A stretch of DNA of 64,000 nt from Candidatus Tectimicrobiota bacterium. GTDB lineage: Bacteria > JACPUC01. The position numbers were made by a program, and so were the translations under genes. The stretch is from contig JACPUC010000026.1 in the NCBI GenBank assembly GCA_016192455.1, positions 124,001-188,000 on the forward strand. The letters run 5' to 3'. Positions 18,690 to 54,676 of this stretch are shown here, piece after piece. The stretch's first letter is position 1; every line of letters begins with the position of its first letter. The notes beneath the pieces are model-generated. The model saw only the letters and a list, made by a program, of their open reading frames with translations. It ran no database searches and was not told the origin of the DNA.

Positions 18690-18714
18690 AAAAAGGGAGG
18701 GCCTTCGCCCTCCC
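18690..18714 (-). terminator. Rho-independent terminator of the oxidoreductase operon
   Basis: Read on the minus strand: GGGAGGGC (18714-18707), a GAAG loop, GCCCTCCC (18702-18695), then TTTTT (18694-18690). A perfect 8-bp stem with a tetraloop and U-tract, 27 bases past the stop of the beta-subunit gene. Confidence 0.93.
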
Positions 18715-18740
18715 TGCCTCGCGATCGGTGTGTGGCGCGC

Positions 18741-20387: not shown

Positions 20388-20406
20388 CTCTGCTTGCGGC
20401 GCCGCC

Positions 20407-22386
20407 TTACGACACGACGCTGAGGCCGGTTACCGACGAGGCGCCGTGCTCCATCACCTCGGGGGGCACCTCGAACACCTCGTCGTAGCCGCGACGCACG
20501 CAGGTGAGGTTATCCTGGATGACCTGCTCGCCGCGGTTGCCGAAGTACTTGCGGAGCGAGCGCTCCACCCCCTCCATGAGCTGCTCGTCATCGAGACCCA
20601 TGGCGCGCTGGTAGGGGGTGACGCGCAAGAAGACCCCCAACAGGACGATCCCCTGCATACGCTGGATGAGGGAGGCGCTCGTGGCGGTCTCCTTGGCGAT
20701 CTTCACCGTATCGAGGCCGAGCACCCGCACCTGCTTCCTGCGAATGAGCGACTGCGCCATGGGCGGAATGTCGGCCCACACCTCCTCGGGGGTGGTGCGC
20801 GACGTCTGCACAAAGACGACGCCGTGATCGTCCAAACCACTCAGGGGATTGCCGAGGTTGAACGCATTCACATCGTTGAGGACGACGAAATCAACATGCT
20901 CCAGCTCGCAGTGGGTGCGGATCTTCTCCTGGCCGATGGAGAGGTAGTAGGTGGTGGGCAGGCCCTTTTTCTCGGAGCCGTACTTGGGATAGGCCTGCAC
21001 CTCGAGTCCGAAGAGGTCCCCCGTCAGCGAGGCGATGATCTTGTTCGTCGTCACCGAGCCGTAGCCGCCCACCGAGTGCCCGCGCATGGAGAAGCTGCCC
21101 TTGGGCCGGATGTCCGGATCGCGGGTGCGCTTCAGGGCCAGCGGATGATCGATCCCCACGGCGAAGTAGGGAGCGCGGCTGCCGTTGCTGATGTGCTCGA
21201 AGATGGCGATGAAGTCGCCCGGTCGCACGTCCCGGCTGCCCAAGCCACCCGAGCCGGCGATGATCCGCGGCAGGCGGGTGATCGCCGGGTAGCCCTCGAG
21301 GCCGGTGAGGGCATCGGCGAAGGCGGCCTTCAGCTCGCACGCGAGGGGATTGGACTGCGCCAGGGGGTTGTCCATGCGCTCCAGCACAGCGATGCTCTGC
21401 ACATGTTTGAGGGCCTCGACGAGGCGCTGCGACGGGAAGGGACGGAAGCAGGTGAGGGAAACCACCCCGACCTTCATCCCTTCCTGGCTGCGCAGGTAGT
21501 CCACCGTCGCCGCCGCCGTCTCCATGTACGATCCCATGCCGATGATGGCGTACTCGGCGTCCTCCAGCCGGTAGGTGTCGAAGAAGTCGTAGCGGCGCCC
21601 GGTCAGGCGGTAGAACTCATCGAAGGCGCGCCGCAGCTTCGGCGCCACCTGATCGTAGAAGTAGCGCTGGGCGATCTTGCCCTTCATGTAGCTGTCCTGG
21701 TTCTGCACCACTCCCGTCATGATCGGGTTGTTGACGTCCATGAGGTTGCGCAGCTTGCCGGCGGGACTGCCAATGTACTCCTGCATCATCTCCGGTTCCG
21801 ACAACTGCACCTTTTCGACGGTATGCGTCGTCAGGAAACCATCCTGGACGTTCAGGAAGGGCGTCTCGGAGTCCTCGGCGGCGCGCCGGGCAATCAACGC
21901 CAGGTCGCCGGTTTCCTGCGCCGTGCGGGCGAAGAGCATGCCCCAGCCGCAGTCAGCCACGGCCATGACATCATCGTGACCGGCGTGCACGTTGAGCGAG
22001 TGCGAGGTGAGCGCGCGGGCGCCGATGTGGAAGACCGCCGGCAGGCGCTTGCCGGAGATGGTGTAGAGCACCTCCTTCATGAGCACCAGCCCTTGACCGG
22101 AGGTGAAGTTCGACACCCGCCCGCCGGCCAGGGCGAACCCCTCGCAGGTGGAGGCGGAACTGTGCTCCGACTCCAGTTCGAGGAACACCAGCGGCTCACC
22201 CCAGAGGTTGGTGCGCCCATTCGAGACTTCAATCTGGTAGCCCTGTCCCATGGTGGTTGAGGAGGTGATCGGATAGGCGCACGCTCCCTGGGTGATATGC
22301 GTCTCCACCCACACGACGGCGCCCGCGCCGTCCGTGGTGGTCGTAATTCCCGGATACGGAACCCGTTTGAGGTTTGCCTGTTCCAT
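20407..22386 (-). CDS. 2-oxoacid:ferredoxin oxidoreductase, alpha+gamma subunit
   Basis: The 659-residue protein matches NifJ domains I-III in order: substrate/pyrimidine domain (TDGAGAVVWVETHITQGACAYPITSSTTMGQG, written in part), transketolase-C-like domain II (~250-400), and gamma domain III with MRGHSVGGYGSVTTNK (~435-450). With the next gene it makes a NifJ cut between domains III and V. In domain I the usual NifJ segment with IFGDHQD is here LNVHAGHDD, and YPITPS is YPITSS, so pyruvate may not be the substrate. An electron donor for the Fe-S reductases of this window is conceivable. A promoter lies ~310 bases upstream. Confidence 0.87.
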   Translation of the reverse strand: MEQANLKRVPYPGITTTTDGAGAVVWVETHITQGACAYPITSSTTMGQGYQIEVSNGRTNLWGEPLVFLELESEHSSASTCEGFALAGGRVSNFTSGQGLVLMKEVLYTISGKRLPAVFHIGARALTSHSLNVHAGHDDVMAVADCGWGMLFARTAQETGDLALIARRAAEDSETPFLNVQDGFLTTHTVEKVQLSEPEMMQEYIGSPAGKLRNLMDVNNPIMTGVVQNQDSYMKGKIAQRYFYDQVAPKLRRAFDEFYRLTGRRYDFFDTYRLEDAEYAIIGMGSYMETAAATVDYLRSQEGMKVGVVSLTCFRPFPSQRLVEALKHVQSIAVLERMDNPLAQSNPLACELKAAFADALTGLEGYPAITRLPRIIAGSGGLGSRDVRPGDFIAIFEHISNGSRAPYFAVGIDHPLALKRTRDPDIRPKGSFSMRGHSVGGYGSVTTNKIIASLTGDLFGLEVQAYPKYGSEKKGLPTTYYLSIGQEKIRTHCELEHVDFVVLNDVNAFNLGNPLSGLDDHGVVFVQTSRTTPEEVWADIPPMAQSLIRRKQVRVLGLDTVKIAKETATSASLIQRMQGIVLLGVFLRVTPYQRAMGLDDEQLMEGVERSLRKYFGNRGEQVIQDNLTCVRRGYDEVFEVPPEVMEHGASSVTGLSVVS

Positions 22387-24218: not shown

Positions 24219-24707
24219 CTACGCCGCCTGCGCCGCGCCTTGCAGCTTCTTCGCCGCGGCCAGGATCGACAGCACGATGTGGTGGTAGCCGGTGCAGCGG
24301 CAGAGGTTGCCGGAGATGGCGAGGCGCACCTCCTGCTCGGTCGGGTTCTTGTTCTCCCGTAGCAGCTCCTCGGCGCAAATGAGCATGCCGGGGGTGCAGA
24401 AGCCGCACTGCAGGCCGTGGTTTTCCCAGAAGGCCTCCTGCAGGGGGGAGAGCTTGCCGTCCTTGGCGAGGGACTCCACCGTCTCGATGGAGGTGCCGTC
24501 GGCCTGCACCGCGAAGGTCAGGCAGGAGCGCACGCCCACCCCATCGATGAAAACGGTGCAGGCGCCGCACATGCCATGCTCGCAGCCGACGTGCGTGCCG
24601 GTGAGGCCGATGTCCTCGCGGATGAAATCGCTCAGGAGCTTGCGCGCCTCCGCCTGGCCCTCGAACTTCTTGCCGTTGATTGTCAGGCTGATCGAATGCA
24701 TCGACAC
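24219..24707 (-). CDS. Molybdenum hydroxylase 2Fe-2S subunit (CoxS-like), operon A
   Basis: About 162 residues with two 2Fe-2S sites: the plant-ferredoxin type CEHGMCGACTVFIDG...SC (~41-63) and the helical type CGFCTPGM...CRCTGY (~102-142). It passes electrons from the Mo centre to FAD. GTG 24707 has GGAGG 8 bases upstream; an ATG two codons later (24701) is an alternative. The start overlaps the ribosome-site region after the FAD-subunit stop at 24709, so the genes are coupled. Last gene of the L-G-M-S operon. Confidence 0.92.
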   Translation of the reverse strand: MSMHSISLTINGKKFEGQAEARKLLSDFIREDIGLTGTHVGCEHGMCGACTVFIDGVGVRSCLTFAVQADGTSIETVESLAKDGKLSPLQEAFWENHGLQCGFCTPGMLICAEELLRENKNPTEQEVRLAISGNLCRCTGYHHIVLSILAAAKKLQGAAQAA

Positions 24708-24708
24708 G

Positions 24709-25584
24709 TTACTTCCCTCCCTGCACCCGGCTGAGGGCTTTCTTAAGGGCACGCTCGGTGAAGACCTTCGACATGGCCCGGCGATACTCCGTGGAAGCGT
24801 GCATATCCCCTTCCGGCTCCACCTCTTCGCTGATCTTCTGGCCGGCCTCGCTGATGAGCTTGTCGGTGAGCTTCTGCCCCTTCAGCATCGCCTCGGCGTC
24901 GGGGGAGCGGTGCGGGAAGGGTCCCACGCCGATCAGCGCCAGGCGGGCCTCCTGGCACGTTCCCTTGCCGTTCATGGTCACCTGGGCGGCGCAGCCGACG
25001 AGGGCGAAATCGCCGTGGCGGCGCGCCAGCTCCACGAAGGCATACCCCGACCCCGGCTTGGGGAGCGGAAAGCGCAGCTCGGTGAGGACCTCGAAGGGCT
25101 GCAGGGAGGTCGTCAGGTAAGTGACGAAAAACTCATCCCAGGTGGTGGTGCGGCTGCCATCCGGCCCCTGGATGGTCAGCTCGGCGTCGCTCAGCACGAC
25201 GAGCGCCGGGTACTCCGAGGCGGGGTCGGCGTGGGCGACGCTGCCGCCGATGGTGCCGCGATTGCGAATCTGCACGTGGCCGATCCACTCCGTGGCTTCC
25301 GTCAGCAGCGGGAATTTCTGCCGCACGAGAGCGGAGCGCTCGATGGTGCGCTCGCGCGTCAGGGCGCCGATCGCCAGCTTGCCGTCCTTTTCCCGGATGT
25401 AGTCGAGCTCGCTCACCTTGTTGATGTCGATGAGGTGGGACGGACGGGTGAGGCGGAAATTCAGCATCGGCACGAGACTCTGCCCGCCGGCCAGGATCTT
25501 GGCATCCTCTCCCGCCTCCTGGAGCAGGCTCACAGCCTCTTCCACCGTGCGCGCGGCGCGGTACTCGAACTTTGGCGGTTTCAT
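24709..25584 (-). CDS. Molybdenum hydroxylase FAD subunit (CoxM-like), operon A
   Basis: The 291-residue FAD-binding protein of the xanthine dehydrogenase/CO dehydrogenase medium-subunit family. FAD motifs are AGGQSLVPMLNFRL (~31-44) and TIGGSVAHADPASE (~111-124); the C-terminal CODH-like domain spans ~180-285. It takes electrons from the 2Fe-2S subunit and hands them to the acceptor. It follows the coxG-like gene by 19 bases. Confidence 0.92.
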   Translation of the reverse strand: MKPPKFEYRAARTVEEAVSLLQEAGEDAKILAGGQSLVPMLNFRLTRPSHLIDINKVSELDYIREKDGKLAIGALTRERTIERSALVRQKFPLLTEATEWIGHVQIRNRGTIGGSVAHADPASEYPALVVLSDAELTIQGPDGSRTTTWDEFFVTYLTTSLQPFEVLTELRFPLPKPGSGYAFVELARRHGDFALVGCAAQVTMNGKGTCQEARLALIGVGPFPHRSPDAEAMLKGQKLTDKLISEAGQKISEEVEPEGDMHASTEYRRAMSKVFTERALKKALSRVQGGK

Positions 25585-25603
25585 GTCGCGCTCCTCTCTC
25601 AGC

Positions 25604-26038
25604 TCATTGAATCTTCTTTTCCATCGCCTTAAAGAACTGGTTGACCATGAGCTTGGTCACGCCGCCCAGCATGCGTTGGCCGATGCTGGCGACCAGGCCG
25701 CCGATCTGGGCCTCGCCGCTGTACAGGATATCCGTCTTGTCGCCCTTGTCCTCCAAGCTGATCGTGGCCTCCCCTTTCACGAAACCTGGAGCGCCGCTGC
25801 CCTCAACCTCCATGCGATAGCTGCTGATGGGGTGCTTTTCCAGGATGCGGACCTTCCCGTCGTAGGTCCCCTTCACCGACGCCACGCCGATCTTCAGGCG
25901 CGCCTCGAACTGATCGGGGGCCACCTCCTCCAGCCGTTCACATCCCGGCAGACAGGAGGCCAACACCTTCTGGTCGAGGAGCACGTCCCAGACCTTCTGG
26001 CGCGCGGCTTTGAACGTGTACTTGCCCTCCAGCTTCAT
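25604..26038 (-). CDS. CoxG-like SRPBCC protein, operon A
   Basis: The 144-residue protein begins MKLEGKYTFKAARQKVWDVLLDQKVLASCLPGCE, the typical CoxG start, and ends with GQRMLGGVTKLMVNQFFKAMEKK, the amphipathic C-terminal helix. CoxG in Oligotropha helps attach CO dehydrogenase to the membrane; relatives accompany many CODH-like hydroxylases of other specificity. GGAGGCGAAT precedes the ATG. Placed between large and medium subunit genes. Confidence 0.9.
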   Translation of the reverse strand: MKLEGKYTFKAARQKVWDVLLDQKVLASCLPGCERLEEVAPDQFEARLKIGVASVKGTYDGKVRILEKHPISSYRMEVEGSGAPGFVKGEATISLEDKGDKTDILYSGEAQIGGLVASIGQRMLGGVTKLMVNQFFKAMEKKIQ

Positions 26039-26162
26039 ATTCGCCTCCGACTTGTCCTCGCCAGCGCATCCGTGGCATCGAGTTCTGCGCGGCGTCCTCG
26101 TCTCGTCTCTGGTGCGTGGGAAGCTCGTTTCCCTGTACGGTCGACGGCGGACGGCGCCCGCA

Positions 26163-28613
26163 TCAGGCAACCCCCTTCGCCTTCTGCTCCTGCAACAGCT
26201 TCCAGACCTTGTTCGGCGTCATCGGCAGCTCCCGCACCGCGATGTTGAGCGGCCGCAGCGCGTCGGCGATGGCGTTGGCAACGACCGCCGGCGCCGTCAT
26301 CGTGCTGCTCTCTCCGCAGCCTTTCGAGCCGAGCACCGTAAACGGCGAGGGCGACACCACGTGACCGATCTCGATGGGGGGAGCCTCCATCGCCGTGGGA
26401 CAGAGGTAGTCCATGAAGCTGGCGGCAAGGAACTGGCCGGACTCATCGTACGCCATTTCCTCGTAGAGCGCCCCCGCCACGCCGTGCAGGGCGCCGCCCA
26501 TCACCTGCCCCTCGACGATCATGGGGTTGATAAGGGTGCCGACGTCGTGCACGGTGACGTACTTGTCGATGCGCACCTCGCCGGTGGCCGGATCGATTTC
26601 CACCCCCATGACTTCGGCGATGAAGCCGTAGGTCTGCGAGGAGTCGACGCGATCCTTCTCATCGGGTGGTTTGGCGTTGGGGAAGTTGAACATGCAGGTG
26701 GCCTGGAGACCCGGCTCCAGCCCCTCCGGCAGCAGCGTCGCCGACCAGTGGGCCTGGCCGGCAATGCGCCGGATCGGCACGGAGCGTTCCGGCGACCCTT
26801 TCACAAAGACCTTGCTGTCCCGCACGTCCAGGTCCTGTGGATTCACCTCCAGCATGGGGGCGGCGATCTTCAGGACCTTCTCCTTCACCCGGCGCGCCGC
26901 CGTGGCCACGGCGCTCGCGCCCACCGAGGCGAAGCGGCTCGAGTAGGAGCCGGAGGTGATGCTCCAGGTGCGCGTGAAGGTGTCGAACTCGGTGATGACG
27001 TGCACGTCGCCGATCGCCATCCCCAGCTCATCGGCGACGATCTGCGACACGGCGGTCTCATGCCCCTGTCCTTCCGGCGTGGTGTTCACCATGCAGAACG
27101 CTTTACCGGAAGGATCGATACGCACCGAGCCGGTTTCCGAGGAGCCGGCCTTTGGGAGGTAGCCTTTGCGCGCGCGCTCTTCCGGCGTCCAGGCGACGGT
27201 GATGTACGCCATGTTCGTCACCGAGGGGTCCACCGCGGTCGCCACGCCGATGCCGTAGAGCTTGCCGCTGGCGCGCGCCGCGGTCTGGCGCTTGCGCAGC
27301 TCGTCGTACTTCGCCATGTCGAGGGCGAGCCGCACCGACTTGGAGTAGTCGCCGCTGTCGTAGATGCCACCGGAGGGGGTGGTGTACGGAAAGGCGCCGG
27401 CGGGAATGAGGTTCTTCAGGCGCACCTCGGCGACATCCATCCCCAGGTCGTAGGCGACCTGATCGACGAGGCGCTCCAGGCCGAAGTAGAGCTGCTGGCA
27501 GCCGTAGCCGCGGTTCGGGCCGGTCAGTGACTTGTTCGTCATGACGGCGTACTGGTCCATCTTCAGGTTCTGGAAGAGGTAGGCGCCGCTGTAGTTGCCC
27601 GTGGCGCGGTAGAGGCAGGCGGGCTCCGGGGTGCGGATGTAGCCGCCGCAGTTGTCGTAAATCTTCATGCGCACGCCGAGGATGGTGCCGTCCTTCTTCA
27701 CTGCCGCTTCCAGGTAGGAGACGCGGTCGGTGCCGCTGGAGCTGGCGACGAGGTGCTCGCGCCGATCTTCGATCCACTTCACCGGCAGGCCGGTGACGCG
27801 GGCGCAGATCGCCATCAGGGTCATGTAGGGGTAGACGCTCGACTTGATGCCGAAGCCGCCGCCGATGTCGGGCGGCACGATGAAACGCAGGCGGTCCTCC
27901 GTCACCCCCAGGGCCCTGCACATCACCGGGTGCATGATGAAGGGACCGTGGAAGTTGGACCAGATGGTGTAGGCCTGGTTCAAGGGGTCCCACTGCGCCG
28001 CCGCGGCATAGCCTTCCACCGGCGTGGAGCCGTACTTCGGGAAGACGAGGCGCCCCGTCTTCACGATCAGGTCCGCCTCCGCCCAGGCTTTGTCGGTATC
28101 GCCGTAGTGCAGGACGCGGTGGTTGGCGACGTTGCTGCCGACGTTCTCATGCAGGATGGGGGCGGTGGGGTCCTCGACCGCCTTCTCGGGATCGAGGACG
28201 CAGGGGAGGGGTTCGTAGTCCACCTCGATGAGATCGCAGGCGTCCTCGGCCGTGTAGCGGTCCTTCGCCACCACCACCGCCACCGGCTCGCCGACAAAGA
28301 GCACCTTGCCTACGGCGCAACTGTAGTAGCGCACCGGCGCCGCGACGCCGAGGGGAAAGGCTTCCGAGAGCTCCGCAACCTGCTTGCCGCGCACCACCCC
28401 CACCACGCCCGGCAGGGCTTCGGCCTTGCTTGCGTCGATGCCGCGGATGCGGGCGTGGGCATGCGGGCTGCGCAGGATCGCCGCCTGGTGCAGATTCGCC
28501 AGGTGCAGGTCGTCCACGTAGGTGCCGCGGCCCGTCAGGAGACGGGGGTCTTCCACCCGCTTCACACTCCGTCCCACCCATCTCTGCGCCGTCTCCGTTG
28601 TGGTTGCTGCCAT
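26163..28613 (-). CDS. CODH-like molybdenum hydroxylase large subunit, operon A
   Basis: An 816-residue Mo-cofactor subunit. IGGGFGIK binds the cofactor region, GQGHET (~514-519) is the conserved glutamine loop and GSKGCGES (~758-765) holds the catalytic Glu. The active-site loop reads GPNRGYGCQQLYF (~365-377) where true CO dehydrogenase has AYRCSFR and form II has AYRGAGR, so this is not a CO dehydrogenase and the substrate is unknown. It is very similar throughout to the protein at 44014. ATG 28613 follows GGAAGGAAG. First gene of operon A, with a promoter 370 bases upstream. A hydroxylase acting on an aromatic or N-heterocyclic ring is plausible. Confidence 0.9.
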   Translation of the reverse strand: MAATTTETAQRWVGRSVKRVEDPRLLTGRGTYVDDLHLANLHQAAILRSPHAHARIRGIDASKAEALPGVVGVVRGKQVAELSEAFPLGVAAPVRYYSCAVGKVLFVGEPVAVVVAKDRYTAEDACDLIEVDYEPLPCVLDPEKAVEDPTAPILHENVGSNVANHRVLHYGDTDKAWAEADLIVKTGRLVFPKYGSTPVEGYAAAAQWDPLNQAYTIWSNFHGPFIMHPVMCRALGVTEDRLRFIVPPDIGGGFGIKSSVYPYMTLMAICARVTGLPVKWIEDRREHLVASSSGTDRVSYLEAAVKKDGTILGVRMKIYDNCGGYIRTPEPACLYRATGNYSGAYLFQNLKMDQYAVMTNKSLTGPNRGYGCQQLYFGLERLVDQVAYDLGMDVAEVRLKNLIPAGAFPYTTPSGGIYDSGDYSKSVRLALDMAKYDELRKRQTAARASGKLYGIGVATAVDPSVTNMAYITVAWTPEERARKGYLPKAGSSETGSVRIDPSGKAFCMVNTTPEGQGHETAVSQIVADELGMAIGDVHVITEFDTFTRTWSITSGSYSSRFASVGASAVATAARRVKEKVLKIAAPMLEVNPQDLDVRDSKVFVKGSPERSVPIRRIAGQAHWSATLLPEGLEPGLQATCMFNFPNAKPPDEKDRVDSSQTYGFIAEVMGVEIDPATGEVRIDKYVTVHDVGTLINPMIVEGQVMGGALHGVAGALYEEMAYDESGQFLAASFMDYLCPTAMEAPPIEIGHVVSPSPFTVLGSKGCGESSTMTAPAVVANAIADALRPLNIAVRELPMTPNKVWKLLQEQKAKGVA

Positions 28614-40799: not shown

Positions 40800-41261
40800 C
40801 TAGGCGGGGCTCGCCGCGGCCCGCACCGCTTCAACGATCTTGGCGTAACCGGTGCAGCGACAGAGGTTCCCCGACAACCCCAGCCGAATCGCCGCCTCGC
40901 TGGGCTTGGGATTGCGCTCCAGCAGGGCGGTGGCCGACATGAGCATGCCGGGGATGCAGAAGCCGCACTGCACCGCGCCGTGCTCGACGAACGCCTCCTG
41001 GAGAGGGCTCAGCTTGCCGTTGCTGGCCAGGCCCTCGACGGTGCGCACCTTCTTCCCCTGCGCCTCCCCGGCGGGGTAGATGCAGGAGTCCACGGTACGG
41101 CCATCGATGATGACCGTGCAGGCGCCGCAGTCCCCTTCCCCGCAGCCCTCCTTGGCGCCCGTCAGGCCCAACCCCAGACGCAGGGCGCTGAGGAGCGACT
41201 CCCCCGGCCGGACATTCACTTTGTGCGTGGCGCCGTTCACATTGAGCGTTATCGTGATCAC
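40800..41261 (-). CDS. Molybdenum hydroxylase 2Fe-2S subunit, operon B
   Basis: A 153-residue protein with CGEGDCGACTVIIDG...SC (~40-60) and CGFCIPGM...CRCTGY (~99-139), the two 2Fe-2S sites of this family. It sits 23 bases after the FAD subunit gene and 79 before the large subunit gene, in the usual order of this branch. Electron carrier between Mo and FAD. Confidence 0.93.
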   Translation of the reverse strand: MITITLNVNGATHKVNVRPGESLLSALRLGLGLTGAKEGCGEGDCGACTVIIDGRTVDSCIYPAGEAQGKKVRTVEGLASNGKLSPLQEAFVEHGAVQCGFCIPGMLMSATALLERNPKPSEAAIRLGLSGNLCRCTGYAKIVEAVRAAASPA

Positions 41262-41284
41262 GTCTCTCTCCCTCCTGCGGCAGG

Positions 41285-42157
41285 CTATCCGGCTTGAGCC
41301 ACCTTGGCGGCCTGCTGGAGTGCGCGCCGCGTGAACACCTCGACCATCTCGCGGCGGTACTCCGCAGAGCAGCGGAAATCAGTGATGGGCTTGCACTCCT
41401 TGGCCGCGGATGCGGCCGCCTCGCGGCAAAGGCCGTCGCTGAACGGCTGCCCGGTGAGCAGCTTCTCGGCCTTCTCGGCGCGCATCGGCACGGGGGCCAC
41501 CGCGCCAAGGGCAATGCGGGCACGGGCAACGGCGCCGTTGCGCATGGTGAGGCTGACGCCGGCGCTCACCATGGCGATCTCGAGCTGGCCGCGCAGGCCG
41601 TGCTTCAGGAAGCAACTCCCGGAGGCGCGCGCCGGCGGCGGCACGAGCACCGCCGTCACCATCTCCCCGGCCCGCAAGGCCGTCTGGTTGGGGCCGACGA
41701 AGAACTTCTGCAAGGGGAGGGTGCGCGCGCCCGCCGGCCCGCTGATCTCGACCTGCGCGTCCAGGGCCAGCAGGGGCGGTCCCATGTCAGCCGATGGGGA
41801 GGCGTGGCAGAGGTTGCCGACAATGGTGCCGACGTTCTGCACCTGGCGCGCCCCGATGAGGCCGGCCGCCTGCGCCAGGATCGGGTAGTGCTCGCACACC
41901 ACCGCCCTCTCCAGCAGGTCGCTGTAAGTCACCAGCGGGCCGATACTGAGGCCAGCCTTGGCGGTGAAGGTGAGCTTCCGCAGCGCTGGGATGGCGTTGA
42001 TGCTCACCAGGTGCTCAGGGGTCACCTTCTCGGCGCGCAGCAGCACCATCACGTCGGTGCCCCCGGCGATGAGCTTGGCCTTCTTCCCATGACGCTTGAG
42101 GAGTTCGACTGCCTCTTTGACCGTTTTCGGCCTGTGGTACTCTTTCATCCCAACCAT
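41285..42157 (-). CDS. Molybdenum hydroxylase FAD subunit, operon B
   Basis: A 290-residue FAD-binding subunit with LIAGGTDVMVLLRA (~29-42) and the second FAD motif NVGTIVGNLCHASPSADM (~108-125), C-terminal CODH domain to ~285. The start may be MVGMKEYH at 42157 or the Met three codons on. Its closest relatives by pattern are the medium subunits of operon-B-type aromatic hydroxylases. Confidence 0.92.
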   Translation of the reverse strand: MVGMKEYHRPKTVKEAVELLKRHGKKAKLIAGGTDVMVLLRAEKVTPEHLVSINAIPALRKLTFTAKAGLSIGPLVTYSDLLERAVVCEHYPILAQAAGLIGARQVQNVGTIVGNLCHASPSADMGPPLLALDAQVEISGPAGARTLPLQKFFVGPNQTALRAGEMVTAVLVPPPARASGSCFLKHGLRGQLEIAMVSAGVSLTMRNGAVARARIALGAVAPVPMRAEKAEKLLTGQPFSDGLCREAAASAAKECKPITDFRCSAEYRREMVEVFTRRALQQAAKVAQAG

Positions 42158-44013: not shown

Positions 44014-46455
44014 ATGGCTACGCTTGAAGACCGCGCGGCGACGATGCAGTGGATCGGACAGAGTATCAAGCGCGTCGAAGATTCTCGTCTGTTGACCGGC
44101 AAGGGGAGCTACGTCGATGACCTGCGCATCCCGAACCTGCACCATGCGGCCATCCTGCGCAGCCCGCACGGGCACGCGCGCATCCTCGGCATCAGCAGTG
44201 CGGAGGCCCTGAAGCAGCCCGGCGTCGTGGCGGTGCTCACCGGCGAGGACGTCGCCGCCATGGCGCGGCCGTTCCCCACCGGCGTCGCCACCGAGGTCCA
44301 CTACTACCCCCTGGCGGTGGGCTCGGCCCGCTTCGTGGGCGAGCCGGTGGCGGTGGTGGTGGCCCGCACGCGCTATGAAGCGGAAGATGCGCTCGACTCC
44401 ATCGAGGTGGACTACGAGCCGCTGCCGGTCGTCACCGACCCCGAGGAGGCCACCGGCGAGTCGGCCCCCCTCCTGCACGACTACGCCGGTACGAACATCG
44501 CCAACCACCGCCTCCTGACGTACGGCGATCTGGAGCAAGCCTTCAGCCAGGCCGACCAGGTGGTGCGGGAGCGCTTCGTCTTCCCGAAATACGCCTCCAC
44601 GCCGATGGAGACCTACGCCGTCGCGGCGCACCACAACCCCATCGACGGCACCTTCACCGTGTGGTCGAACTTCCATGGGCCGTTCATCATGCACCCCGTG
44701 GTGGCCAAGGCCCTGAAGGTTCCGGAGACCAAGCTGCGCTTCATCGTGCCGCCCGACATCGGAGGCGCCTTCGGCATCAAGGTGAGCATCTACCCCTACA
44801 TCGCTCTGCTGGCGCTGGCCGCGAAGAAAGCCGGCGTGGCGGTGAAGTGGATCGAGGACCGCCGCGAGCACCTGCTCGCCAGCTCCAGCGGCGCCGACCG
44901 CGTCTCCTACCTGGAGGCGGCGGTAAAGCAGGACGGGACCATCCTCGGGATGCGCGGGCGCATCTACGACAACGTCGGCGGCTACCTGCGCACGCCCGAG
45001 CCGGGCTGCCTCTACCGCCCCACCGGCAACTTCGTCGGCGCCTACAACTTCAAGAACCTGCAGCTCGACAACTACGCCGTGATGACGAATAAGTCGCTCA
45101 CCGGGCCGAACCGCGGCTACGGCTGCCAGCAGCTCTACTTCGGGCTGGAGCGCCTGATCGACCGCGTGGCGCGCACCCTGAAGCGCGACCCCGTGGAGGT
45201 GCGCATGCGGAACTTCATCCGCCCGGAGGAGTTCCCGTACACCACCCCCACCGGCGGCATCTACGACAGCGGCGACTACCCGGCCGCCATGCGGAAGGCG
45301 GTGGAGCTGGCGCGCTACGAGGAGCTGAAGAAGGAGCGCCAGGCGGCCCGCCGCGCCGGGCGGCTCTTTGGCATCGGCGTGGCCACCGCCGTCGATCCCT
45401 CCGTCACCAACATGGCCTACATCACCCTAGCGCTGGAGCCGGAGGTGCGCGCCCGCAAAGGATTCCTCTCGAAATCGGGATCGAGCGAATCGGCGACGAT
45501 CAAGATCGACCCTCTCGGCAAGGTGAACATCACCCTCAGCACCACGCCGCAGGGGCAGGGGCATGAGACGGTGGTGGGGCAGATCGTGGCGGACGAGCTG
45601 GGGGTCTCCTTCGAGGACGTGCGCGTGACGACCCAGATGGATACCTTCACGAACCTCTGGTCGATCACCTCGGGCGCCTACTCGAGCCGCTTCGCCGCCG
45701 CCGGCGCCAGCGCCTTCGCGCTGTCGGCGCGCAAGCTGAAGGAGAAGGTGAAGGAGATCGCCGCCCACCTCCTGGAAGCCCACGGCGCCGATCTCGAAAT
45801 CGAGAACGGCACCATCCGGGTCGTCGGCAGTCCCGAGAAGAGCATGCCGGTCAAGCAGGTCGCCGGCATCGTCCATTGGAGCCCGCACCTGCTGCCGCGC
45901 GGCCTGGAACCGAACCTCACCGCCACCGCCACCTTCAACTTCCCGAACGCCACGGCGCCGGACCAGCAGGACCGCGTCGATTCCTCCAACACCTACGGCT
46001 TCATCGCCGAGATCGTGGCGGTGGAAATCGATCCGGAAACCTGCGAGGTGAAGATCGTGCGCTACGCCTCGGTGCACGACGCCGGGCGCATCCTCAACCC
46101 CCTCATCGTGGAGGGGCAGATCATCGGCAGCATCGTGCACGGCATCGGCGGGGCGCTCTACGAAGAGCTGGCCTACGACGACAACGCCCAGCTCATGGCG
46201 GCCACCTTCATGGATTACCTCTGTCCCACGGTGGACGAGGTGCCGAAGTTCGACCTCGACCACCTCGAGTCGCCCTCCCCCTTCTCGATCCTCGGCGCCA
46301 AGGGCTGCGGCGAGAGCAGCTCGATGGTCGCCCCGGCGGTGATCGCCAACGCGGTGGAGGACGCCCTTTGGCACCGCGGCGTGCGCATCACCACGCTGCC
46401 GCTGTCGCCCAACCGCGTCTGGCACTTGTTACAGGCCGCCAGGCGACAGGGGTAG
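44014..46455 (+). CDS. CODH-like molybdenum hydroxylase large subunit, orphan copy
   Basis: The 813-residue close paralog of the operon A large subunit, co-linear and with long identical stretches. It keeps IGGGFG (written IGGAFG here), the unusual loop GPNRGYGCQQLYF (~366-378), GQGHET (~514) and GAKGCGES with catalytic Glu (~765). It has no FAD or 2Fe-2S gene of its own beside it, so it must borrow those of operon A (most similar) or B. AAGGA lies 10 bases before ATG 44014. The amidase gene follows by 147 bases on the same strand. Substrate unknown; the neighbours suggest an aromatic amide or N-heterocycle. Confidence 0.9.
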   Translation: MATLEDRAATMQWIGQSIKRVEDSRLLTGKGSYVDDLRIPNLHHAAILRSPHGHARILGISSAEALKQPGVVAVLTGEDVAAMARPFPTGVATEVHYYPLAVGSARFVGEPVAVVVARTRYEAEDALDSIEVDYEPLPVVTDPEEATGESAPLLHDYAGTNIANHRLLTYGDLEQAFSQADQVVRERFVFPKYASTPMETYAVAAHHNPIDGTFTVWSNFHGPFIMHPVVAKALKVPETKLRFIVPPDIGGAFGIKVSIYPYIALLALAAKKAGVAVKWIEDRREHLLASSSGADRVSYLEAAVKQDGTILGMRGRIYDNVGGYLRTPEPGCLYRPTGNFVGAYNFKNLQLDNYAVMTNKSLTGPNRGYGCQQLYFGLERLIDRVARTLKRDPVEVRMRNFIRPEEFPYTTPTGGIYDSGDYPAAMRKAVELARYEELKKERQAARRAGRLFGIGVATAVDPSVTNMAYITLALEPEVRARKGFLSKSGSSESATIKIDPLGKVNITLSTTPQGQGHETVVGQIVADELGVSFEDVRVTTQMDTFTNLWSITSGAYSSRFAAAGASAFALSARKLKEKVKEIAAHLLEAHGADLEIENGTIRVVGSPEKSMPVKQVAGIVHWSPHLLPRGLEPNLTATATFNFPNATAPDQQDRVDSSNTYGFIAEIVAVEIDPETCEVKIVRYASVHDAGRILNPLIVEGQIIGSIVHGIGGALYEELAYDDNAQLMAATFMDYLCPTVDEVPKFDLDHLESPSPFSILGAKGCGESSSMVAPAVIANAVEDALWHRGVRITTLPLSPNRVWHLLQAARRQG

Positions 46456-46602
46456 CAGCTTGATCCGCTTCCACGCAGCGTTGCGCCCCCAGCCGCGCGG
46501 CGGCGCGCCTGCGAGATGCCCGTGACCATGTCCGCCCACCCAGGAGCCTGATCACCACGACACGTTGAGCCGCCGGAACATCAGCTCAGAGAGGAGAACG
46601 CG

Positions 46603-47661
46603 ATGATCGGACAGTACACCGCGCTGGCCATCCAATCGAATATCCCCGTGGCGCGCAGCCGGGAAGAATTCCCTGATCACATCAAGCATCTTGGAAAGAT
46701 TCTCGACTCGGCCGTCAACACCCTGAACATCGAGTTCCCGGTGCGCTTGGCGGTGTTTCCGGAGGCCTCGTTCCAGGGATTTCGCGACGAGTACATCGAT
46801 CAGGATCATGTGGACTATGTGAACCGCATGGCCATCGACATCCCCGGCCCCGAAACCGATCTCTTCGGCCAGAAGGCGAAGCAGTACAACACTTACATCG
46901 TGGCCACCGCCAAGGCGAAGCACCCGAAGTTCCCGAACCGCTTCTTCAACGTCGCCTTCATCGTCTCCCCCGAGGGCGAGGTGGTGCATCAGCACTACAA
47001 GTGCCAGCTCTGGGTGAAGGAGCACTCGACGACGCCGCACGACGTCTACGACAAGTGGGTGGAGCTGTACGGCGACGGCCTCGATGCCTTCTTCCCGGTG
47101 GCGAAGCTGCCCATCGGCAACATCGGCACCACGATCTGCATGGAGGGGAGCTTCCCGGAGCCGTACCGCGCCCTGGCGATGAACGGCGCCGAGATCATCA
47201 CCCGTGTCGCCTACCCCGAGCCGTGGGTTTCCCAGGGGCAGTGGGAGGTGCAGAACCGCGCCCGCGCCCTGGATAACACCTGCTACGTCGTCTCCCCGAA
47301 CCACGGCACGATGCTGCGGCGCCACGGCCGGGCTGACCAGATCGGCGGCGGCAACGGCGGGCAGACGATGATCGTGGACTATCGCGGCGTCGTCACGGCA
47401 AAGGTGAGCTACGCCACCGAGTCCTTCATCGGCGCCTCCATCAACCTCGCGGCCCTGCGCGAGCATCGCGCCAGGGCCAAGTTCTGCAACTTCCTGCCCT
47501 ACCTGAAGACGGAGATCTACCAGAAGGTTTACGAGCGTCCCATCTGGCCGAAGAACCTGGCGGCCCAGGAGCCGCCGGGGAAGCACGCCGAGGTGGAAGG
47601 CATTTTCATGGACACCGTCACCGATCTGCAGAAGCGCGGCTGCTTCTTCAGCCCGGCGTAG
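46603..47661 (+). CDS. Nitrilase-superfamily amidase/nitrilase
   Basis: The 352-residue protein has the full carbon-nitrogen hydrolase triad: Glu54 (FPEASF), Lys133 (HYKCQLW) and Cys179 (TTICMEGSFPE). The sequence around Cys (CMEG) differs from the CWE of aromatic nitrilases and is nearer to aliphatic amidase/formamidase types, which act on acyl amides or formamide. GAGAGGAG precedes the ATG. A terminator-like hairpin follows (47712-47744). It would release ammonia from an amide or nitrile produced in the catabolic cluster; exact substrate unknown. Confidence 0.88.
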   Translation: MIGQYTALAIQSNIPVARSREEFPDHIKHLGKILDSAVNTLNIEFPVRLAVFPEASFQGFRDEYIDQDHVDYVNRMAIDIPGPETDLFGQKAKQYNTYIVATAKAKHPKFPNRFFNVAFIVSPEGEVVHQHYKCQLWVKEHSTTPHDVYDKWVELYGDGLDAFFPVAKLPIGNIGTTICMEGSFPEPYRALAMNGAEIITRVAYPEPWVSQGQWEVQNRARALDNTCYVVSPNHGTMLRRHGRADQIGGGNGGQTMIVDYRGVVTAKVSYATESFIGASINLAALREHRARAKFCNFLPYLKTEIYQKVYERPIWPKNLAAQEPPGKHAEVEGIFMDTVTDLQKRGCFFSPA

Positions 47662-47711
47662 TGCTGCGTGCTGATCCCCGCCGGGGGCCGTGTTCGCCCG
47701 CCATGAAACCC

Positions 47712-47744
47712 AGCAGCGCCGGAGAAAACATCTCCGGCGCTGCT
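47712..47744 (+). terminator. Terminator-like hairpin after the amidase gene
   Basis: AGCAGCGCCGGAGA (47712-47725), AAACA loop, TCTCCGGCGCTGCT (47731-47744), a perfect 14-bp stem 50 bases past the stop. It is followed by TGTCGG with no real U-run, so it may need a factor. Confidence 0.7.
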
Positions 47745-47940
47745 TGTCGGCCGACCAAGCCCCGCCCCGCTGCATCCTCTTTCAGCCCTCTGGGGGCCCG
47801 ATTCTGAACGGCCCTCGCTCCAGCAGCCGCAACCGGCGGTCAGACGGCTCGCTCCAGCTCATCCGCCGGGCGGCAGCGCGCCGCATTGCGCAGCGACCCT
47901 GGCGCCCTGGCAGCCGCTCCCGACCTCGGCCAGAAGCAAT

Positions 47941-47953
47941 TTCACAGTGTGAA
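47941..47953. promoter_or_regulatory. Operator-like palindrome TTCACAGTGTGAA
   Basis: A perfect 13-bp dyad with central G. Flanking CAATT and AATTG extend it to CAATT(T)CACAGTGTGAATTG with one extra T. It is AT-rich against its surroundings and lies ~35-50 bases upstream of the -10 of the ligA promoter, the position of an activator or upstream repressor site. Confidence 0.55.
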
Positions 47954-47987
47954 TTGAAACAACTCCTACCCACCATTCCCGGGGCTG

Positions 47988-47996
47988 TGATATAAA
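47988..47996 (+). promoter_or_regulatory. Extended -10 promoter of ligA/ligB
   Basis: TGATATAAA: TG, one base, TATAAA (47991-47996), with no recognisable -35. Weak -35 plus an upstream palindrome suggests an activated promoter. Confidence 0.55.
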
Positions 47997-48088
47997 GATG
48001 GGCGGGGAGTGATGCCGCGCGCGCCCAAGCGCAAGCCGCGAAGCTCCCCTTCAGCACGTGCCCGAGCAGGAGGGCGATGGAGGAGATC

Positions 48089-48400
48089 ATGGGAATCGAC
48101 AACACCGATCGCACGCTGGCATCCAACCGGCTGGTCTTCGAGGTGCGGCGCGATATGGCCGCGTACCGTCGTTTCAGAGAGAACTTCGAGCTGGTCATGG
48201 GAGAGTATGGCCTCACGGAGGAAGAGAAAGAGGCTTGGCGCACCTTGGACCTCAAGAAGCTCGGCGACCTTGGGGTGCACCCGTACTTCCTGCCGCAGAT
48301 CAGCCGTCTATTCCATGGAGGTGGTTACAACCACAATCGCAGCGAGGCATGCAAAGCCTATGCGGCGTCGGTGCTTGCCGGGCCCGCCGGCGACCAGTAG
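48089..48400 (+). CDS. Extradiol dioxygenase alpha subunit (LigA-like)
   Basis: A ~103-residue helical protein of the protocatechuate 4,5-dioxygenase LigA family: RDMAAYRRFRENFE, YGLTEEEKEAW and the C-terminal HGGGYNHNRSEA that lines the LigB active site in the partner complex. ATG 48089 (GGAGG 5 bases upstream) or ATG 48077 four codons earlier can be the start. LigB follows by 48 bases. Identity firm by size, pattern and neighbour. Confidence 0.88.
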   Translation: MGIDNTDRTLASNRLVFEVRRDMAAYRRFRENFELVMGEYGLTEEEKEAWRTLDLKKLGDLGVHPYFLPQISRLFHGGGYNHNRSEACKAYAASVLAGPAGDQ

Positions 48401-48448
48401 GAGAACGAAAGGACGACCACGGCGACAACCGTGAGGAAGGAGGGAGTG

Positions 48449-49291
48449 ATGGGCGAGATCGTCCTCACCATCGCGCTGGCGCACGCTCCCGGCCTGACGG
48501 GCTGGCTGGACCAGGCGCCGCAAGACCAGCAGCAACGGCTGCGCGACGGCTACCAGGAGATGGGGCGGATTGTCCGCGCCGCCAAGCCCGATACCATCAT
48601 CGGCCTTGCCAACGACCATATCCTGAACTTCCAGTTCGACAACCCGCCCAACTTCTGCATCGGCACCGCCGACATCTGGCACGGCCCGGCCCCTTGGTTC
48701 AAGGACTGGCTCAACGTCCCCGATTACACGGTGAAGGGGAATCGCGACCTCGCCCATACCCTGGTGCGCGAGGGAGACCGGGCCGGGGTTCGCTTCGCCT
48801 ACTCCGACTCGCTCCTCTTCGATGATAACTGGTCGGTGCCGCTCTTCTACCTCACCCCCGACCACGATGTGCCGCTCGTGCCCATCCACATGAACTGCAT
48901 CCTGCCGCCCCTGCCCACCCCGGCGGAATGTTTTCGCGTCGGCGAGGTGATCGCCGAGATCGTGCGCACCCGTCGGCCGGCACGCGAGCGCATCATCCTC
49001 ATGGCGACCGGGGGTCTCTCCCACGATCCGGGTGGGCCGGCTTACTTCAATGTTGATGAAGCGTTCGACCGCTGGTTCCTCAGCCTGCTCGAGGAGGGGA
49101 ACCCCCAGCGTGTCCTCAAGGAAGCGACGATCGAGCGCATGAAGCAGGCGGGCGACGGCGGCACCAGCGAGCTCCTCGCCTGGATCGCGGCGATGGGGGC
49201 CGTCGGCGGGCGACGCGCCAGAACCATCTGCTACGAGCCGGCCGTGGAGCTGCGCTGCGGCATGGGTGGCGTCGTCTGGGAGATGGCGTAG
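48449..49291 (+). CDS. Class III extradiol ring-cleavage dioxygenase (LigB-like)
   Basis: The 280-residue catalytic subunit has the iron ligands His12 (LAHAPG), His57 (ANDHIL) and Glu241 (GGTSELLAW), plus the general base His192 (GGLSHDP), closely matching His12, His61, Glu242 and His195 of Sphingomonas LigB. With LigA it would cleave a catecholic (or dihydroxypyridine-like) ring next to the hydroxyls. AAGGAGGGAG precedes ATG 48449. The isochorismatase-like amidases downstream make an N-containing ring an attractive substrate; protocatechuate or gallate are the conventional alternatives. Confidence 0.9.
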   Translation: MGEIVLTIALAHAPGLTGWLDQAPQDQQQRLRDGYQEMGRIVRAAKPDTIIGLANDHILNFQFDNPPNFCIGTADIWHGPAPWFKDWLNVPDYTVKGNRDLAHTLVREGDRAGVRFAYSDSLLFDDNWSVPLFYLTPDHDVPLVPIHMNCILPPLPTPAECFRVGEVIAEIVRTRRPARERIILMATGGLSHDPGGPAYFNVDEAFDRWFLSLLEEGNPQRVLKEATIERMKQAGDGGTSELLAWIAAMGAVGGRRARTICYEPAVELRCGMGGVVWEMA

Positions 49292-49411
49292 GCGCGCAAC
49301 CGCGCGGCTGGTGCGAAGCCCCGCCACCAGCCGCCGATGCATCCACGGGCGGGCTGCGCCCTGGCGACCTGCGTCAGGTCGGTCTGGCGGATCGGCCCGT
49401 TGGGAGGTACC

Positions 49412-50044
49412 ATGCGTAACGTGCTTCCTGATCTGGCGGCAAGAGTTGACCCCAAGCACACCGCCCTGGTCGTCATCGACATGCAGAACGACTTCTGCGC
49501 TCCAGAGGGATACATCGACAAGCTCGGCCTCGACGTCTCGCGCTGCCAACAGGTTGCCGCGCCGCTGACCGACCTCGTCGAGACGGCGCGCCGAGCCGAT
49601 GTGCCGGTGATCTGGGTGCAGGCCATCTACGACGAGGTCTACCTCGCCGCCCCCATGCTCGCCAAGCGCCAGGAGATGGGGGCGCGTTTCGGCTGCTGCG
49701 AGACGGGCTCCTGGGGGGCTGAATTCTTCGGCGTCAAACCGCTGCCCGGCGAGTTCGTGGTGCAGAAGCATCGCTACAGCGCCTTTTCGGGCACCGAACT
49801 CGATAGCCTCCTGCGCGATCACGGCATCAAGACCATCGTCGTCACCGGCGTGCAGACCAACGTCTGCGTCGAGTCCACGCTGCGCGACGGCTTCTTCCAT
49901 GGCTACTACATCGCCGTGCCGCGCGACTGCGTCGCCTCGCACTCGCCGGAGCTGCACGACGCCACCCTGAAGAACGTCGATCTCTGCTTCGGCAACGTGA
50001 CGAGCGGCGCCGAGCTGCGGCGCCTCTGGAGCGGCGCTTCGTAG
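49412..50044 (+). CDS. Isochorismatase-family amidohydrolase, tandem copy 1
   Basis: 210 residues, triad Asp23 (VIDMQNDF), Lys119 (VQKHRYSAF) and Cys152 (GVQTNVCVEST). TGGGAGG lies 5 bases before the ATG. Relatives act as N-carbamoylsarcosine, biuret, ureidoacrylate or maleamate amidohydrolases. It is 120 bases downstream of ligB and probably in the same transcript, which suggests hydrolysis of an amide formed after ring opening. Substrate inferred only from context. Confidence 0.87.
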   Translation: MRNVLPDLAARVDPKHTALVVIDMQNDFCAPEGYIDKLGLDVSRCQQVAAPLTDLVETARRADVPVIWVQAIYDEVYLAAPMLAKRQEMGARFGCCETGSWGAEFFGVKPLPGEFVVQKHRYSAFSGTELDSLLRDHGIKTIVVTGVQTNVCVESTLRDGFFHGYYIAVPRDCVASHSPELHDATLKNVDLCFGNVTSGAELRRLWSGAS

Positions 50045-50190
50045 TATCCAGTCATGCCGAAGGGAGTCGAACGGCCGGCGCGGCAGGCGGCGGTGGCGAC
50101 GAGTTCACGTGCGGGAGTGCCGACGATTCCAGCCGGAGCGTCGCCGCCAACCTCTTGGTACGCCCAGGAACCAGTGGCAAAGGAGAGCCG

Positions 50191-50823
50191 ATGCGCGAGA
50201 TTCTCACGGAGTTGGCAGAGATCGTGAAGCCGGAGCATACCGCGCTGCTCGTCATCGACATGCAGAATGATTTCTGCGCCCCGGGCGGCTACGTCCAGGC
50301 CGTCATGGGCAAGGACGTGAGCGGCGCGCCGCGACTGGCCGAAATCATCATGGACCTGGTGGAAGCGGCGCGACGGCTGCGCATCCCCCCCATCTGGATT
50401 CAGGCCATCTACGATGATCACTACTTGCAGCCACCCATGATCGCCAAGCGCCTGCCGAGGGGGTCGGAGGTCTTCTGCTGCCGCACCGGCACGTGGGGCG
50501 CCGACTTCTTCGGGGTGAAACCGCTCCCCGGCGAGTTCATCGTGCAGAAGCACCGCTTCAGCGGCTTCAACGGCACGCCGCTCGATAACCTCCTGCGCGA
50601 CCACGGCGTCAAGACCATCGTCACCACCGGCGTGACGACCAACGTCTGCGTCGAGTCCACCCTGCGCGACGGCTTCTTCAATGGCTACTACACGGTCGTG
50701 CCGAGCGACTGCGTGGCGGCGAACTCGCCGGACCTGCACGCCTCCTCGCTGAAGAACATCGAGCTCTTTTTCGGCTACATCAGCACCAGCGCCGAGCTGC
50801 AGGAGCTGTGGGAAAGGGGCTGA
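50191..50823 (+). CDS. Isochorismatase-family amidohydrolase, tandem copy 2
   Basis: 210 residues, a clear duplicate of the preceding gene (same FFGVKPLPGEF.VQKHR and NVCVESTLRDGFF segments), triad Asp23, Lys120 and Cys153. AAAGGAG precedes the ATG. Retention of all catalytic residues in both copies suggests two related substrates or a hetero-oligomer rather than decay. Confidence 0.87.
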   Translation: MREILTELAEIVKPEHTALLVIDMQNDFCAPGGYVQAVMGKDVSGAPRLAEIIMDLVEAARRLRIPPIWIQAIYDDHYLQPPMIAKRLPRGSEVFCCRTGTWGADFFGVKPLPGEFIVQKHRFSGFNGTPLDNLLRDHGVKTIVTTGVTTNVCVESTLRDGFFNGYYTVVPSDCVAANSPDLHASSLKNIELFFGYISTSAELQELWERG

Positions 50824-51121: not shown

Positions 51122-51574
51122 CTAGCGCCCCGCCTCCGCTGTCTCCCAGGGGGCCTGCTCGATGCGCTGCGCAATATAGTCGGGGAGAGGGATGCCCTTG
51201 TGCGCATCGCCGAGGCCGCTGGTGCAGCAGTCGATCTTCTCGCCGCGCGCCACCTCCTCGCCGTTCTTGCTGAAGGAGAAGGTGAACGTCAGGCTCTTCG
51301 TGCCCTTGCGCTTCACCCAGACGTGGGTCTCGATGACATCATCGAACACCACGATCTTTTTGTACTCGCAGGTCGCCTTCACCACGGTCCAGTCGTAGTT
51401 GTACTTGCCGGTGGCTCCCCAGTGATCCACCAGCGGCCCCGGCAGGTTCAGCGAGCGGAAGAACTCCCCCTCCATCTCATCCATCCACTTGAAGTAGTTC
51501 GCAAAGAAAATGATGCCCGCGGCATCAGTCTCGTGGAACTGCACGCGGCGTGTGTGGCGAATTTCGTAGGCCAT
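51122..51574 (-). CDS. 4-hydroxybenzoyl-CoA thioesterase-like (hotdog) protein
   Basis: A 150-residue hotdog-fold protein with VQFHETDAAGIIFFANYFKWMDE, the YbgC/4-HBA-CoA thioesterase signature with catalytic Asp17. It hydrolyses aryl- or acyl-CoA thioesters. ATG 51574 has AGAAGG 8 bases upstream; the open frame further upstream reads as non-coding. It lies 223 bases downstream of the CoA ligase gene on the same strand. Confidence 0.88.
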   Translation of the reverse strand: MAYEIRHTRRVQFHETDAAGIIFFANYFKWMDEMEGEFFRSLNLPGPLVDHWGATGKYNYDWTVVKATCEYKKIVVFDDVIETHVWVKRKGTKSLTFTFSFSKNGEEVARGEKIDCCTSGLGDAHKGIPLPDYIAQRIEQAPWETAEAGR

Positions 51575-53665: not shown

Positions 53666-54676
53666 ATGGACAGGACGATCGACATCCACTCGCACCTCTT
53701 CACACACGAGTGCGCCGCCGCCTGCTCGCGGGTCGATGCCGACTGGCAGTTCTCCATTCAGGCCAATGAGCGCGGTCTGCACTACATCCATATCCGCGAC
53801 CAGATCATCGGTCCCGTGCGGCCGGGCATGTTCGACCTGGCGGCGCGCCGGGAGGACATGCAGCGCAGCCGCCTCGAGCGCCACGTCCTCAGCGTCATGC
53901 CCTTCGCCTTCCTCTACCACGCCCCGGTTTCCTGCGCCATCGCCTTCTCCCGGCTGCAGAACGAGATGCTCGCCGCGGCGGTGCAGCGCCACCCGCGCCA
54001 GTTCGTCGGCCTCGCCACGGTGCCGCTCCAGGACCCGGACGCCGCCGTCAAGGAGCTGCACCACGCCGTGACGCAGCTCGGCCTGCGCGGCGTGGAGATC
54101 GGCACGAACGTGCAGGGCGCCTACCTCGACGACCCGCGCTTCTTCCCTTTCTACGAGGCGGTGCAGGACCTCCAGGCGCCGATCCTCGTCCATCCCCAGG
54201 ATGTGGCGGGAGGGGAGGCGCTGAACCCCTATTTCCTGCGCAACCTCATCGGCAACCCCCTGGACACGGCGATCGCCATGGCGCGCCTCATCCTTGGGGG
54301 GGTGATCGAGCGCTTTCCGCGCCTGCGCCTCTGCTTCGTGCACGGCGGCGGTTTCCTGCCGTACCAGATCGGGCGGCTGGACTTCGCCTACCGCTCGCGC
54401 CCGGAGCTGCAGGGAACCCTGCCGAAACCGCCGAGCGAGTACTTCAGCTCCCTCTACTTCGACACCGTTCTTTTCCACGAGCCGGCCATCGAGTACCTCA
54501 TCAACCAGGTGGGGGCCGACCACGTGCTCCTTGGCACGGATTACCCCTTCCGGCTCTCCGACCCCAACCCGGTGGCTACGGTGAACCGCTGCACGGGGCT
54601 GGGGGTTGACGAGCGCCGGGAGGTGCTTGGCCGCAACGCGCAGCGGTTCTTGAACCTTCCTGACGATGAGGCGTAG
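53666..54676 (+). CDS. ACMSD-like amidohydrolase (decarboxylase/hydrolase)
   Basis: A 336-residue TIM-barrel of the Amidohydro_2 family. Metal ligands are IDIHSH (His8, His10), LVHPQD (~175), a His in CFVHGGG (~227) and Asp in GTDYPF (~291). Relatives are 2-amino-3-carboxymuconate-6-semialdehyde decarboxylase, gamma-resorcylate decarboxylase and OMA hydratase, all acting on aromatic acids or their ring-fission products. AGAGGTGG precedes the ATG. Divergent from the aryl-CoA ligase. Fits the aromatic-catabolic setting; exact reaction unknown. Confidence 0.85.
   Translation: MDRTIDIHSHLFTHECAAACSRVDADWQFSIQANERGLHYIHIRDQIIGPVRPGMFDLAARREDMQRSRLERHVLSVMPFAFLYHAPVSCAIAFSRLQNEMLAAAVQRHPRQFVGLATVPLQDPDAAVKELHHAVTQLGLRGVEIGTNVQGAYLDDPRFFPFYEAVQDLQAPILVHPQDVAGGEALNPYFLRNLIGNPLDTAIAMARLILGGVIERFPRLRLCFVHGGGFLPYQIGRLDFAYRSRPELQGTLPKPPSEYFSSLYFDTVLFHEPAIEYLINQVGADHVLLGTDYPFRLSDPNPVATVNRCTGLGVDERREVLGRNAQRFLNLPDDEA

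Follow-up and report, generated by a model that had tools for sequence, protein, structure and literature searches.

A LigAB-type extradiol dioxygenase paired with isochorismatase-fold amide hydrolases in a Tectimicrobiota genome: a candidate module for opening nitrogen-containing rings

This work concerns a run of six plus-strand genes, at positions 44014 to 50823 of a 64,000-nucleotide stretch of DNA (the window), in which a LigAB-type extradiol dioxygenase is followed by two isochorismatase-fold amide hydrolases. The window comes from contig JACPUC010000026.1 of a Candidatus Tectimicrobiota bacterium (assembly GCA_016192455.1) and belongs to contig 31 of a draft genome of 4.46 Mb in 31 contigs (88% complete). 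The last four genes, LigA-LigB-Iso1-Iso2, probably form a catabolic module with its own transcription unit. The features of the run are as follows.

44014-46455, plus strand: large subunit of a molybdenum (Mo) hydroxylase, MoL_A, 813 amino acids; PF01315, PF02738 and PF20256 (MoCoBD_1/2, Ald_Xan_dh_C)
46603-47661, plus strand: nitrilase-superfamily C-N hydrolase, formamidase-like; PF00795
47712-47744, strand not applicable: perfect inverted repeat (14-bp stem, 5-base loop), lying between the nitrilase and LigA genes
47941-47953, strand not applicable: 13-bp odd palindrome TTCACAGTGTGAA, 5' of LigA
48077-48400, plus strand: LigA, small subunit of a class III extradiol dioxygenase; PF07746, 33.1 bits (cut-off 25.3)
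48449-49291, plus strand: LigB, the catalytic subunit; PF02900; Fe site His12, His57 and Glu241, plus His192
49412-50044, plus strand: isochorismatase-fold amide hydrolase 1 (Iso1), RutB-like; PF00857; Asp23-Lys119-Cys152
50191-50823, plus strand: isochorismatase-fold amide hydrolase 2 (Iso2); PF00857; Asp23-Lys120-Cys153

The gene run and its products

A preliminary description of this DNA had named the gene products and their catalytic residues, and both are borne out: Glu54-Lys133-Cys179 of the nitrilase, His12, His57 and Glu241 of LigB, and the two Asp-Lys-Cys triads are exact. All of its members are present, but it had counted five genes; LigA is a separate gene, so that the run contains six.

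LigB has the features of a class III extradiol dioxygenase, that is, a PF02900 match above the cut-off, a 2-His-1-Glu Fe site, a catalytic His and, encoded at 48077-48400, the LigA partner of this class. Residues H12, H57, H192 and E241 are invariant in an alignment of 18 diverse homologs. The AlphaFold model is confident (predicted local distance difference test, pLDDT, 91; predicted template modelling score, pTM, 0.92), and in structure comparison its nearest neighbours are DesB at Z 35.2 and LigAB at Z 33.7, with 2-aminophenol 1,6-dioxygenase at Z 26.

Since fold and profile are both nearest to LigAB and DesB, the simplest explanation would be an ordinary protocatechuate or gallate 4,5-dioxygenase beside which amidases lie by chance. 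The window shares with these enzymes the pairing of LigA with LigB, the Fe ligands, the catalytic His and the fold (Z 34-35), but identity is about 20-24%, and the pair adjoins amide hydrolases instead of recognised genes of a 4,5-cleavage lower pathway, none of which was found among the annotated neighbours. In addition, LigB scores far under the NCBIfam cut-offs (116 against 290 bits for the class III subfamily model and 68 against 412 bits for gallate dioxygenase), and amidase neighbours recur across its whole clade, as described below. We therefore consider this explanation improbable. Canonical protocatechuate or gallate cleavage as such was rejected on the scores under curated cut-offs and the wrong neighbours.

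Iso1 and Iso2 are 64% identical, Iso2 being a probable tandem duplicate, and each carries the Asp-Lys-Cys triad of the PF00857 cysteine amide hydrolases. The closest solved structure to both is RutB (8bkd; E 2e-36 for Iso1), and their scores of 145.5 and 140.8 bits lie under the RutB equivalog cut-off of 378 bits. The substrate of RutB, ureidoacrylate, is an N-carbamoyl enamine, and its product is deaminated by the Rid protein RutC (PMC8113886). The Rut uracil pathway is thus similar to the window in that RutB, nearest to the isochorismatases, hydrolyses an N-carbamoyl enamine once the ring is open; it differs in that no other rut gene was recognised beside the isochorismatases and that an extradiol dioxygenase opens the ring in the window. 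The nitrilase has formamidase as its top NCBIfam model (70.6 bits, far under the cut-off of 406) and as its top solved structure (5g3o). Elsewhere in the window, at 16141-22386 on the minus strand, an isochorismatase, an AMP-binding coenzyme A (CoA) ligase and a 2-oxoacid:ferredoxin oxidoreductase pair form one run, which is a further amidase-linked catabolic cluster.

The intergenic spaces measure 147 bp between the Mo subunit and nitrilase genes, 415 bp between nitrilase and LigA, and 48, 120 and 146 bp downstream. The 415-bp space holds the inverted repeat, a terminator-like hairpin without a T tract in a segment with a z of -3.05, and the palindrome TTCACAGTGTGAA, an operator-like element whose role upstream of LigA is a candidate one. 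On the plus strand there was no conspicuous sigma-70 consensus. Judged from the sequence, the genes probably fall into two predicted transcription units, Mo-nitrilase and LigA-LigB-Iso1-Iso2.

Recurrence of the LigAB-amidase pairing

When 84,980 genomes, among which the source genome is the sole member of its phylum, were scanned with a profile, Alpha- and Betaproteobacteria yielded LigB relatives with identities of up to 66%; the viral contigs scanned contained no LigB relative. A maximum-likelihood tree of LigB splits (97/88) into 53 rows that include the window and 46 others. The latter hold the plasmid references, namely the CarBb proteins of two carbazole degraders (L125, L128), PydA-like proteins of legume symbionts (L124, L129) and proteins annotated as protocatechuate 4,5-dioxygenase (L126, L127).

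LigA adjoins LigB in 50 of the 51 loci of the window's LigB clade. Using tblastn seeds, we found that 38 of these 51 loci encode an amide hydrolase on the same strand as LigB and no more than 3 kb away from it, compared with 3 of 43 outside the clade. In the clade loci, amidase hits have a density of 0.143 per kb close to LigB, which falls to 0.016 per kb at a distance of 4-10 kb. Note that these context counts rest on tblastn and not on gene calls, and that the high-GC (guanine plus cytosine) loci were called with the codon usage of the window. In a check set of 18 further loci, an amidase lies within 3 kb in 11, on the same strand in 9.

The position next to LigAB is filled by four unrelated families: isochorismatase (PF00857), FmdA (PF03069), cyclase (PF04199) and amidase-signature enzymes (PF01425). 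The window's subclade has an isochorismatase in 11 of 14 loci, a mostly Rokubacterial subclade has FmdA in 14 of 16, and a third has FmdA, an isochorismatase or a cyclase; the amidase-signature enzyme occurs once. The cyclase family includes an arylformamidase-like match (L083). Pigmentiphaga-type alpha/beta hydrolases, arylformamidase-like by eye, were rejected as amidases since lipase/esterase models match them. By parsimony, the amidase state changed at least 14 times on the LigB tree. That unrelated families occupy the same slot suggests a common requirement for amide hydrolysis. The interpretation first proposed is thus supported in part: the pairing of ring opening by LigAB with amide hydrolysis is conserved and recurrent, and fits a nitrogen-containing ring.

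The preliminary description had called for the same gene order to be sought in other genomes. What is conserved is the core, LigA-LigB-isochorismatase, which forms a tight run in at least nine Alpha- and Betaproteobacterial loci (L042, L044, L045, L046, L048, L049, L051, L052 and L053) and also on the Bosea Tri-49 plasmid. The positions of the Mo and nitrilase genes are not kept, and the order Mo subunit-nitrilase-LigAB-isochorismatase was seen at no other locus examined. We found no description of a LigAB-isochorismatase or LigAB-formamidase module in the open-access literature searched, which leaves out most subscription journals.

Other arrangements were also seen. On Corynebacterium glutamicum plasmid p48A, hyuA-hyuB-LigB-LigA-FmdA lies between recombinase genes (L123 8111-14179), and may represent a mobile form of the LigAB-formamidase pairing; the same gene order is found in Skermania (L088). 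Four loci, mostly of Actinomycetota (L027, L107, L109, L115), conserve the order LigB, FrsA-like hydrolase, DHDPS-family aldolase and Rieske oxygenase, and represent a further uncharacterised LigB cluster.

The molybdenum hydroxylase and nitrilase genes

MoL_A has the large-subunit domains and the conserved catalytic Glu (in GCGES) of Mo hydroxylases. No gene for an iron-sulphur (Fe-S) or flavin adenine dinucleotide (FAD) subunit lies near 44014-46455 on the plus strand, so that MoL_A is an orphan. Such subunit sets occur in the window at 24219-25584 and 40800-42148. In particular, the region 24219-28565 (minus strand) encodes a complete Mo hydroxylase set (Fe-S, FAD, CoxG-like and Mo subunits), whose large subunit is 63% identical to MoL_A; the paralogs of MoL_A, including this one at 26163-28565, are 63-64% identical to it.

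These observations bear on the question of whether the first two genes belong to the system at all. LigAB and the isochorismatases alone may form the unit, with the Mo subunit and the nitrilase as unrelated neighbours; this would be compatible with either an N-heterocycle or an N-bearing benzenoid as the substrate. In the source genome, Mo large subunits number about 30, and there are ten nitrilase matches, the present one included; a nitrilase near LigB was found at no other locus of the window's clade, nor was a same-strand Mo subunit within 3 kb. Because the nitrilase-LigAB adjacency occurs only here, both genes belong to large paralog families and the 415-bp gap contains a hairpin, the two are weakly tied to LigAB. 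On the other hand, the genes are co-directional, and Mo subunits do occur near LigAB elsewhere: in five Rokubacterial loci one lies, divergently oriented, some 2 kb from LigAB, and plasmid p1 of Rhizobium rosettiformans (L130 5672-16257) carries on one strand a beta-keto acid cleavage protein, LigA, LigB, an FAD monooxygenase, two alpha/beta hydrolases, a full Mo hydroxylase and a major facilitator superfamily transporter, which has the look of a complete gene run for the degradation of an aromatic compound. The combination of LigAB with a Mo hydroxylase is thus not unique.

Related Mo paralogs also lie near RidA genes. Of the six close copies of the Mo subunit, three lie no more than 2.5 kb from a RidA gene (a pattern noticed post hoc, with a chance probability of about 5e-5), which hints that the compounds on which this Mo group acts contain nitrogen. 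The three copies are as follows.

C31:242261: Mo subunit copy with RidA within 2.5 kb
C23:58417: Mo subunit copy with RidA within 2.5 kb
C22:111362: Mo subunit copy with RidA within 2.5 kb; contains an in-frame TGA

On this evidence we see an even chance that the two genes are unrelated neighbours, and a pathway role for the Mo subunit or the nitrilase is likewise about even.

A candidate ring-opening pathway

The genes, their residues and the conserved pairing are established, and from them we infer the substrate, the product and each reaction step. The reading that we prefer, to which we give a chance just short of even, is that LigAB opens an N-containing ring and an isochorismatase then hydrolyses an amide or N-formyl bond. 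LigAB, as a two-subunit Fe(II) extradiol dioxygenase, would cleave a vicinal-dihydroxy N-aromatic ring beside the ring nitrogen, the substrate most likely being an N-heterocycle of the 3,4-dihydroxypyridine type. The ring-opened product would bear an N-formyl or N-acyl enamine, from which the RutB-like isochorismatase would cut the N-formyl or N-acyl amide, and the freed enamine would give up ammonia, either spontaneously or by the action of a RidA-type deaminase. A second amide, or the freed formamide, may be handled by the second isochorismatase or by the formamidase-like nitrilase, and the upstream Mo subunit could add a ring hydroxyl with small subunits supplied from elsewhere, for example from 24219-26038. 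FmdA, a formamidase, and the cyclase family would likewise suit N-formyl groups.

The action of a LigB-family enzyme on a dihydroxypyridine has a precedent in PydA of mimosine degraders, which has been placed in this family; C2-C3 cleavage of 3,4-dihydroxypyridine to 3-(N-formyl)-formiminopyruvate has been proposed (PMC7356986). The PydA route is similar to the window in that ring opening by a LigB-family enzyme is followed by a hydrolase, and RidA is present both in a likely PydA cluster (L124) and near some relatives of the window's LigAB. However, the PydA-like LigB proteins, taken to be PydA from their gene context, are 29-34% identical and lie in another part of the tree, their hydrolase has an alpha/beta fold, and no LigA is annotated beside them. 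Their clusters (L124 8001-16996 and L129 7001-14996), on plasmids of a Leucaena symbiont and a bean-nodule Sinorhizobium, contain LigB, an alpha/beta hydrolase, an ATP-binding cassette (ABC) transporter, FAH, RidA and pyruvate carboxylase, and are probably mimosine/dihydroxypyridine (pyd) clusters.

The nicotinate and picolinate pathways (NicX/NicD/NicF; PicA-PicG) also combine a Mo hydroxylase, a ring-opening dioxygenase and amide hydrolases, and NicF belongs to the same superfamily as the window's isochorismatases. There, the ring is opened by the unrelated NicX or PicD, whereas the window uses LigAB, and no monooxygenase was recognised in the cluster. NicX or PicD was not recognised beside the cluster, in a search that did not extend genome-wide. 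NicX opens a non-vicinal diol and LigB-type enzymes open vicinal diols, and the comparison with NicX therefore says little.

As the main alternative, the ring could be a benzenoid that bears nitrogen, such as an aminophenol, or a catechol whose side chain is a carboxamide, the amidases stripping the amide or acting earlier. LigB-fold enzymes do cleave aminophenols (2-aminophenol 1,6-dioxygenase) and aminobiphenyl-diols (CarBb), and CarBaBb of carbazole degradation is, like the window, a LigA/LigB-type pair that acts on an N-containing compound; however, CarBb, 34% identical, falls outside the window's LigB clade and has an alpha/beta hydrolase downstream. Three genes that follow the run, all of uncertain pathway membership, should be considered here.

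51122-51574, minus strand: 4HBT thioesterase; PF03061/PF13279
51798-53444, minus strand: benzoate-CoA ligase family protein; TIGR02262, 448 bits (cut-off 375)
53666-54676, plus strand: ACMSD-like amidohydrolase-2 decarboxylase; PF04909; ACMSD structures at E 5e-60

The proximity of the last two favours a benzenoid, the known substrate of ACMSD being aminocarboxymuconate semialdehyde. However, two 3-hydroxyanthranilate dioxygenases on other contigs could feed ACMSD, and the gene may serve kynurenine-type catabolism instead. Since the recurrence of formamidase-like and RutB-like enzymes also suits N-formyl or N-acyl products better than an aryl amide, we regard a benzenoid substrate as unlikely, though far from negligible. 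As for the thioesterase, 4HBT genes are found beside LigAB in L052 as well and, by similarity (tblastn to L033) or sequence start, in L033 and L047. The source genome encodes a second, distant LigB (L033 7525-9793, contig 23), beside which no LigA was seen and which is preceded by two genes resembling the window's thioesterase.

Several points weigh against the N-heterocycle reading. The Fisher value of 1e-11 for the clade counts is overstated because related loci are not independent, and the amidase seeds were chosen from the same loci as were counted. Most of the 18 check loci belong to one family, in five members of which no amidase was recognised and its place is taken by an ABC transporter and an alpha/beta hydrolase. 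The PydA-like references lie outside the window's clade, and the Mo and nitrilase genes lack counterparts near LigB within it. Finally, RidA genes occur near LigAB in L047, L051, L079 and L082, but the window's cluster contains no RidA gene.

The core is thus an uncharacterised variant of the extradiol ring-cleavage pathways, and the five-gene pathway as originally drawn is not established. More tentatively, we suggest, at somewhat less than even confidence, that a widespread LigAB clade opens N-heteroaromatic rings and that unrelated amide hydrolases have repeatedly been swapped into the next step. If this is true, LigB genes that now carry vague names, such as the 'hypothetical protein' entries on the Bosea and Corynebacterium plasmids, would move to heterocycle degradation, which would matter for nitrogen turnover in soil and for pollutants of the pyridine type.

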